This document shows positions 26,787 through 39,419 of a stretch of DNA of 64,000 bases, piece after piece; position 1 is the stretch's first letter, and each line of letters starts with the position of its first letter. Both the position numbers and the translations under genes were made by a program. The notes beneath the pieces were generated by a model. That model was given only the letters and a program-made list of their open reading frames with translations. It made no database searches and had not been told where the DNA came from. The stretch comes from an uncultured Pelagibacteraceae bacterium (GTDB lineage Bacteria; Pseudomonadota; Alphaproteobacteria; Pelagibacterales; Pelagibacteraceae), in the NCBI GenBank assembly GCA_902601705.1, contig CACKNV010000001.1, positions 62,001-126,000 of the forward strand, read 5' to 3'.

Positions 26787-26800
26787 AAAATATATTAAAA

Positions 26801-26834
26801 AGGCCTAGTGAATTTTCACTAGGCCTTTTTTTTT
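26801..26834 (+). terminator. Rho-independent terminator/attenuator between binding protein and permease
   Basis: A perfect ten-base stem AGGCCTAGTG / CACTAGGCCT around the loop AATTTT, followed by nine T residues. It sits 14 bases after the binding-protein stop and 12 bases before the permease start, so it should stop most transcripts and let only a fraction continue into permease, ATPase and kinase. Confidence 0.92.
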
Positions 26835-38218: not shown

Positions 38219-39172
38219 TCATATTTTAATTTTACTTAACGCACTATTTTTAAATATATTTGCATCTCTTATATAACGCCTTACCATTTGTGTTGTTTTA
38301 TGACCTGTCATCGCCATTATACTTCTTTCATCTGCGCCGGAGTCTGCAGCTACTGTTGCAAAGCCTGATCTTAAACTGTGACCTGAAAAATCTTTATTTT
38401 CTATTCCTGCTAATCTTAAACAATCCTTAATTATTAATACTACTGATTGATCTGTTAATCTGTGACAAGTTAATATTGAGCCTTTTGCAAATCTTCTGAA
38501 TATTGGACCATTTTTTATTTTTGATAAGTTTAACCAGTTCTTTAAACTTCTTACTGGACAATATTTTTCGTTAGTGAAGAAGGGCAGTCCTTTTACCTGA
38601 CCTTCTCCAAATTGATCTGTTTTTGATCTTCTCAGAGTTATTTTTACACCCTCATCAACAAAATCTAAGTCCTCGTGATCTACAGAAATTAATTCTGTTC
38701 GTCTAAATCCTCCGCTAAAACCTAAAAGTATTAAAGTTCTATTTCTTAATTTTTTTATTTTTTCAATTTTTTGTTCGTCTATTACATTTATAATTTGTTT
38801 TAAGTGATTGATTAATATAGGTTTTTTTCCAATTTGAATGCTTCCTTTTTTCCTTTTGATACCCATTAAGTTTTCAATAATAACTGGATGTTTCGTATCT
38901 AAATAATGACCTTTAATTTTATGAACCACCCCTATAGATACTAATCTTCGTCTTAAAGTGCTTATTTTTGAGCTAGCAGAAAGGTGTGTAAGGTACAAAG
39001 ATACAACTTTCGGATCTGTTGGAATTGAATTAAATCCGTGCTTTGCGCAAAAAGCACCAAAATCTTTAAAATCTGATTTATACGCTCTCAGCGTGTTATT
39101 TGCTTTTGAGCTTTTGAGGTTTTCTAAGGTTTCCTCATGAAGCTTTTTTACATCTGTTAATAACTCATTCAT
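38219..39172 (-). CDS. Tyrosine recombinase / phage-type integrase
   Basis: 317 residues. N-terminal SAM-like DNA-binding domain about 1-105 (TLRAYKSDFKDFGAFCAKHG). Catalytic domain with the full set: Arg157 in SGGFRRTELISVD, Lys184 in RRSKTDQ, His265 and Arg268 in GHSLRSGFA, His291 in MTGHKTT, and nucleophile Tyr300 in RRYIRD. All residues needed for strand exchange are present. It is not next to a tRNA. A near-perfect 35-bp palindrome lies three bases upstream of its start codon. XerC/XerD identity is not clear. Confidence 0.9.
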   Translation of the reverse strand: MNELLTDVKKLHEETLENLKSSKANNTLRAYKSDFKDFGAFCAKHGFNSIPTDPKVVSLYLTHLSASSKISTLRRRLVSIGVVHKIKGHYLDTKHPVIIENLMGIKRKKGSIQIGKKPILINHLKQIINVIDEQKIEKIKKLRNRTLILLGFSGGFRRTELISVDHEDLDFVDEGVKITLRRSKTDQFGEGQVKGLPFFTNEKYCPVRSLKNWLNLSKIKNGPIFRRFAKGSILTCHRLTDQSVVLIIKDCLRLAGIENKDFSGHSLRSGFATVAADSGADERSIMAMTGHKTTQMVRRYIRDANIFKNSALSKIKI

Positions 39173-39175
39173 ATA

Positions 39176-39210
39176 ATTACTATTGATAACAATTAATTAT
39201 CATTAGTAAT
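39176..39210. repeat. 35-bp imperfect palindrome upstream of recombinase gene (candidate recombination core or operator)
   Basis: Two 14-base inverted arms, ATTACTATTGATAA at 39176-39189 and TTATCATTAGTAAT at 39197-39210, match at 13 of 14 positions and flank the 7-base spacer CAATTAA. Arms of 11-14 bp with a 6-8 bp spacer, and inner GATAA/TTATC ends, are the architecture of tyrosine recombinase crossover sites such as dif. It lies between the divergent starts of the recombinase and the small membrane protein, so an autoregulatory operator is the alternative. Confidence 0.6.
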
Positions 39211-39227
39211 ATATTAAGTGATTTTAG

Positions 39228-39419
39228 ATGTCAATACGTATAATTTTAAATCAGATGATTAAATTTATTCTTCCTATAGTAGTATTCATAGCTGCTGTTT
39301 ACGGAATTTCATACTTCTGGACCAACTCAAGCTCTAAAGGCAAAAAAATGATAGCTTTAGGCTTAATAATAGCCCTAATAATAGGAATATCTTTAACAAT
39401 TTACTTAATTTTTGACTAA
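39228..39419 (+). CDS. Small two-helix membrane protein, unknown function
   Basis: 63 residues made almost wholly of two hydrophobic helices (about 12-30 and 42-61) joined by a short loop NSSSKGKK. No known family recognised. Its stop overlaps the alkyltransferase start by one base (TAATG), and its start is 17 bases from the palindrome, so it and the alkyltransferase form a short operon divergent from the recombinase. Confidence 0.6.
   Translation: MSIRIILNQMIKFILPIVVFIAAVYGISYFWTNSSSKGKKMIALGLIIALIIGISLTIYLIFD

Follow-up and report, generated by a model that had tools for sequence, protein, structure and literature searches.

A palindrome in the promoter of a single Xer-like recombinase gene as the probable chromosomal dif site of SAR11 bacteria, with paired imitations in pelagiphage-like contigs

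The stretch of DNA analysed in this study, referred to below as the window, comprises 64,000 nucleotides from an uncultured member of the Pelagibacteraceae and contains on its minus strand a gene (38219-39172) for a single Xer-like tyrosine recombinase of 317 amino acids, designated type A. The protein matches the Pfam integrase catalytic domain (PF00589, 1.1e-19) and the N-terminal SAM-like domain (PF02899, 3.2e-5). An alignment of 17 SAR11 sequences, which includes the window's and spans lengths of about 304-317 amino acids, contains invariant R (GFRRTEL), K (SKTDQ), H and R (HSLR), H (GH) and Y (RRYIR) residues that we take to be catalytic. Scores against the NCBIfam models fall short of the cut-offs for XerD (70.3 versus 329.6), XerC (63.5 versus 335.15), XerA (66.4 versus 220) and XerS (34.7 versus 267), while profile comparison with solved structures returns XerD (1.3e-11), Cre (3.7e-11), 4a8e, an entry named XerC-like (1.8e-10), and XerH (5jjv, 6.5e-8). 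The AlphaFold model of the recombinase is weak, with a mean pLDDT of 66.7 and values below 50 for residues 263-317. The only other PF00589 match in this genome, which amounts to 1.08 Mb in 15 contigs, is a phage-type integrase of 446 amino acids. It is encoded at 1390-2730 of locus L002 (contig C1 of the same genome, at about 250.5 kb) and is adjoined by same-strand open reading frames of 142 and 133 amino acids.

A palindrome at 39176-39210 lies three bases (39173-39175) away from the recombinase ATG at 39172. Its 14-nt arms are complementary at 13 positions (93%) and flank a 7-bp spacer. On the minus strand it reads ATTACTAATGATAA-TTAATTG-TTATCAATAGTAAT, and this is the sequence that we propose as a type-A dif site. 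As read on the forward strand, it is composed of a gene-proximal arm, ATTACTATTGATAA (39176-39189), located 3 nt from the start codon, an asymmetric spacer, CAATTAA (39190-39196; TTAATTG on the minus strand), that is the proposed crossover region, and a gene-distal arm, TTATCATTAGTAAT (39197-39210). On the minus strand the distal arm has an inner GATAA that recurs in the sites of either host type and in the phage imitations described below. The first-pass annotation had reported a palindrome with one mismatch per 14-base arm around CAATTAA, beside a recombinase that retains its catalytic residues, and both statements hold; the range that it assigned, 39173-39227, does contain the palindrome but also takes in promoter sequence. 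Palindromes with 14-nt arms, at least 13 pairs and a spacer of 6-8 nt occur at only two places in a scan of the 64-kb window, where 50 Markov shuffles of the window yield a mean of 0.26. The other place, near 26796-26831, is terminator-like, with perfect 14-bp arms AAAAAGGCCTAGTGAATTTTCACTAGGCCTTTTT that give two overlapping matches. The whole genome contains one copy of the 35-mer when up to three mismatches are allowed.

The palindrome also overlaps a putative recombinase promoter on the minus strand, formed by a -35-like hexamer, TTGACA (39229-39234), and, at a 17-nt spacing, a -10-like hexamer, TATTAC (39206-39211), that extends into the outer arm of the site. A consensus promoter scan did not list this TTGACA/TATTAC pair. 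Of 115 related loci, 103 have a TTGAC whose first base is 33 bp ahead of the core GATAA, and TATAAn stands at the -10 place in the type-B consensus. Given this overlap, recombinase bound at the site would be expected to occlude the promoter of its gene. Autorepression through the site is therefore plausible, and the site may serve both as a recombination site and as an operator. A divergent open reading frame of 63 amino acids lies at 39228-39419. Its start may be an internal ATG at 39255 (MIKFILP), which is kept in many relatives, and the part upstream of that ATG shares bases with the -35 hexamer of the recombinase.

The recombinase is detected (E of at most 1e-20) in 191 of the 247 genomes of the family and in 90 of 102 good ones, with one match per genome except for two in G034, and all 11 single-contig genomes among those listed carry it. 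Twenty of the 56 genomes without a match are described in the genome listing and 36 are not. Two of high completeness, G012 (99%) and G019 (96%), have neither a recombinase match nor a PF00589 match, and PF00589 was not found in 9 of the 16 genomes asked. Directly upstream of the gene, the same sequence is present in all 30 gene-anchored close relatives, and it persists in several loci where the neighbouring gene changes (L005, L024, L026, L032). Among 25 further loci, four of which (L038, L043, L112, L131) were picked through the site, the core is visible in 20 of the remaining 21, and the last of these, in G015, has it at one mismatch.

Genome-wide searches gave a corresponding distribution. 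With up to three mismatches tolerated, 122 of the 247 genomes contain the consensus 35-mer, always as a single copy, and none contains its reversed control. A 17-mer core, for which at most one mismatch was tolerated, is found in 194 genomes, 17 of which have a second core-like match; the reversed control of this shorter query matches 9 of 247 genomes, so that a few of the 17-mer matches are background. This core is matched in 190 of the 191 genomes with the recombinase, the sole exception (G185) having a variant spacer, and is lacking in 52 of the 56 genomes without the gene. A scan of named genomes returned at least 120 stretches, the best 80 of which are all assigned to Pelagibacteraceae, Candidatus Pelagibacter or Pelagibacterales, i.e., SAR11. 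The recombinase begins 5-21 bp after the core in 117 of 120 stretches, and the remaining three stretches end at the site, where the start of the gene would be expected. In one locus (L131 of G221) the full site is 79 bp from the recombinase start rather than the usual few bases, and the interval (623-702) contains a half copy, consisting of the left arm and spacer.

The 117 loci fall into two types. Type-A recombinases are accompanied by ACTAATGATAA arms and type-B recombinases, which are 55-65% identical to that of the window, by TTCCGATAA arms, with the type of the recombinase matching that of the arms in 115 of 117 loci. The scan behind these loci fixed the core TTAATKG and part of the arms, with both arm types allowed, and placed no constraint on the promoter or on the outer letters of the arms. 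The sequence GATAA-TTAATKG-TTATC is kept in both types, with a spacer of TTAATTG in 68 and TTAATGG in 11 of 79 type-A loci, and of TTAATGG in all 36 type-B loci; since the scan itself fixed TTAATKG, it is the gene-anchored loci that provide an unbiased view of the spacer. Covariation of arms and protein would be expected from direct recognition, and common descent of both would yield the same pattern. If recognition is direct, the arm types would represent a natural specificity switch between recombinases that are 55-65% identical.

The position of the site relative to the replication terminus was assessed in six closed genomes (of 11 listed), each sampled in 20 stretches and fitted with a two-arc GC-skew model. 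In all six the site lies 0.3-7.0% of the genome length from the fitted terminus (G003 2.1, G035 7.0, G063 1.7, G009 1.1, G005 0.9 and G040 0.3%), at widely different contig coordinates. Random placement would produce this with a chance of about 2e-5 if the six genomes were independent, a combined value that is too small since the genomes are related. The GC skew of SAR11 is noisy, and permutation p values of the fits, obtained for five genomes with G040 excluded, are weak in three cases (0.150, 0.103 and 0.147) and strong in two (0.003 and 0.000). Correction of the skew for gene strand, which covers the two genomes G003 and G035, leaves a nearly flat curve with its peak at the site window in G003, and in G035 places the maximum in the 825-kb window, one before that of the site at 920 kb.

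We also examined the distribution of XerC and XerD in 97 genomes of the order. An XerD model matches 46 of 49 sister-family genomes at an E of 1e-74 or better, and most of these genomes contain another strong match, at around 1e-75, which is taken for XerC. No protein of XerD grade was found with this model in 48 genomes of the window's own family, where the best E is 4.7e-25 and the best matches are the single recombinase itself. XerD was the one model used in this search, which covers XerC through the kinship of the two proteins. The FtsK-gamma domain is present in all 16 genomes asked. In a tree of 31 proteins, drawn with its root on a very long phage-integrase branch, E. coli XerC and XerD cluster with the sister-family XerD proteins (98/96) apart from the SAR11 recombinases, which together with scattered alphaproteobacterial relatives form an open, poorly resolved fork. 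On the combined evidence of the NCBIfam scores, the order-wide XerD search and the tree, we rejected a canonical XerC or XerD identity for the protein. Relatives outside the family that are 30-42% identical to the SAR11 protein occur in 14 of 286 other genomes sampled in the class and are spread across families (L312-L327), and recombinases of this kind are a possible source of the SAR11 replacement.

These observations lead us to conclude, with a probability of roughly 0.87, that SAR11 (Pelagibacteraceae) has an Xer system with a single recombinase, for which the palindrome serves as the chromosomal dif site. This reading of the genome sequences is based on conservation of the site, its linkage to the gene, its position near the terminus and the covariation of arms and recombinase, as well as on the lack of proteins of XerC/D grade in the sampled genomes and the presence of FtsK-gamma. 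Recombinase protomers would bind the two similar arms, and two such sites on a dimeric chromosome would synapse near the terminus, probably brought together by FtsK. Strand exchange across the 7-bp asymmetric spacer, presumably through cleavage by the recombinase, would then resolve the dimer into two monomers. Binding at the site would probably also limit expression of the recombinase.

Operators, too, are typically found at such a short distance from a start codon, and a purely regulatory element, at which the recombinase or some other regulator represses the recombinase gene while recombination takes place elsewhere, would account for the 3-nt distance from the ATG in the window and for the fixed place over the -10 hexamer, with TTGAC at a constant 33 bp from the core in those 103 of 115 loci. 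We nonetheless regard this as unlikely, as an operator alone leaves unexplained the position near the terminus, the conserved asymmetric spacer and the copies on phage contigs that have no SAR11-type recombinase gene; moreover, the window's own genome contains the 35-mer only once, with up to three mismatches allowed. Less probable still is that the inverted repeat immediately before the ATG acts in RNA, by folding into a hairpin in the 5' leader and thereby restricting recombinase translation. The transcription start that follows from the promoter would fall inside the site, such that the full hairpin may not be transcribed, and a leader element would explain neither the tracking of protein type by arm type nor the phage copies, which stand in another context.

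A further alternative is the self-contained mobile or inversion unit suggested by the first-pass annotation, in which the palindrome would be the attachment or inversion site of an element that encodes the recombinase. The ancestor of the gene may indeed have been mobile, given that outside relatives of 30-42% identity occur in just 14 of 286 other genomes of the class, and the same arms are found on some phages. However, the locus is family-wide and near the terminus in the six genomes sampled, and each of the 122 matching genomes has a single full site and hence no pair around an element, which makes a present-day mobile unit very improbable; second copies of the 35-mer, for which the annotation had suggested a search, did not appear in the own genome or in those 122 genomes. 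What does agree with our analysis is its suggestion that the palindrome resembles a recombination site of the adjacent recombinase and echoes dif, and the operator that it also proposed may be a second role of the site. The opposing case that it raised, in which the recombinase uses the chromosomal dif instead, dissolves if the palindrome is, as it appears to be, itself the best dif candidate.

The site is also imitated in phage sequences. The full site occurs in 15 IMG/VR contigs, and no SAR11-type recombinase was found in the stretches examined of 29 core-bearing phage contigs. The four loci examined individually (L265, L272, L274, L278) encode phage proteins, among them, in L265, a TerL with 85% identity to its counterpart in pelagiphage HTVC106P, which was isolated on HTCC7211. 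At least 80 contigs have a related TerL. Thirteen were set aside, one for want of the TerL N-terminus and 12 because the sequence upstream was short or duplicated, which left 67 HTVC106P-like contigs, some of which are closely alike and a few of which had already come from the site scan. The 46,348 bp upstream of terL in this set contain 58 exact GATAA-N6..8-TTATC motifs, spread over 44 of the 67 contigs, and the 241,082 bp downstream contain none. Models of the arms detect separate A-type and B-type sites in 45 of 67 contigs at a threshold of 0.77 and in 30 of 67 at 0.80, mostly 31-33 bp apart and upstream of terL. With one shuffle per contig, either type appears in 5 of 67 and both in none at 0.75, and there are no matches at 0.80. 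Tandem A/B imitations upstream of terL can be seen in the pelagiphage-like contigs L390-L469 and also in L297-L308.

Spacers of the phage sites measure 6-8 bp and are identical to the host spacer in only 4 of 105 cases, so that for most of them integration at dif is less likely than recombination between phage copies or a role as binding decoys. The 15 contigs with the host spacer may integrate at the host dif. Lysogens at dif were considered as well and are unsupported, since a TerL match is present in 4 of the 247 family genomes and in none of them beside the recombinase; in G123 TerL is on the recombinase contig, 180 kb away. Among 12 isolated phages the best ungapped score, computed with a fixed 7-bp spacer, exceeds the best of five shuffles in six, clearly so in HTVC035P and HTVC024P. 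HTVC028P beats its shuffles, but at a place within a gene, while HTVC010P, HTVC106P, HTVC203P and Skadi-3 tie with theirs and Lederberg, Greip and Methylophilales phage Venkman fall below. By inspection of stretches chosen by eye and uncontrolled, 11 of the 12 have at least one motif with up to one mismatch, several of these weak, and HTVC028P has none; in stretches of the same kind Greip and HTVC106P have sites with other spacers.

These results can be joined in a broader scenario that we offer tentatively, at somewhat less than even odds. SAR11 would have exchanged XerC and XerD for one separately descended recombinase with dif in its own promoter, so that occupancy of the site sets the level of the enzyme, and recombinase and arms would then have split into two specificities. 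The two tandem sites of pelagiphages related to HTVC106P would each correspond to one specificity, enabling the phages to use or sequester the Xer protein of hosts of either class, chiefly in recombination between phages and not for integration. Such paired mimics would provide an independent handle on the use of host recombination by tailed SAR11 phages.

SAR11 bacteria are among the most abundant in the ocean. In the text available as PMC2731167, Carnoy and Roten (2009) describe Pelagibacter ubique as being without a dif/Xer system and cite Pelagibacter as a case in which genome fitting discarded it. The terms Pelagibacter and SAR11 do not occur in the main text of PMC3025954. Among the papers listed in searches of mostly open-access journal literature, no title or abstract opening describes a SAR11 dif or dif mimics in pelagiphages. 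If our reading is correct, dif/Xer has been replaced in SAR11 and not discarded, which would answer, for this group, the question of whether bacteria reported to be without dif/Xer have a substitute.

Single-recombinase systems are already known as XerS, XerH, XerL and XerA. The proposed system shares inner ATAA and TTAT sequences around a short spacer, a terminus position and FtsK-gamma with XerCD/dif, but it has one recombinase that falls outside the XerC/XerD branch in the tree and a spacer of 7 rather than 6 bp. XerS/difSL of streptococci and lactococci and XerH/difH of Campylobacter and Helicobacter likewise employ one recombinase with dif beside or near its gene, according to PMC5357621 and PMC9765430. 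The SAR11 protein differs from XerS in length (about 304-317 versus 354-362 amino acids) and in its NCBIfam XerS score (34.7 versus the cut-off of 267), and its site differs from difSL in having a 7-bp and not an 11-bp spacer and arms that are unrelated by eye. XerL/dif of Legionellales, as portrayed in PMC9765430, is likewise a single-recombinase system where a survey had reported none, with strongly symmetric dif arms and a mobile element that carries a dif mimic. To judge from the same description, xerL of L. pneumophila is more than 400 kb from dif, whereas the SAR11 site is in the promoter of the gene. Finally, the phage contigs resemble IMEX such as CTXphi and LME-1, which exploit host Xer, in having dif arms of host type while lacking a SAR11-type recombinase. 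Integration at dif is not their obvious use, as the host spacer is found in those 4 of 105 sites, even though 15 contigs selected by site do have it; here, unlike in IMEX, the phages are tailed and carry two mimics that fit the two host recombinase types.
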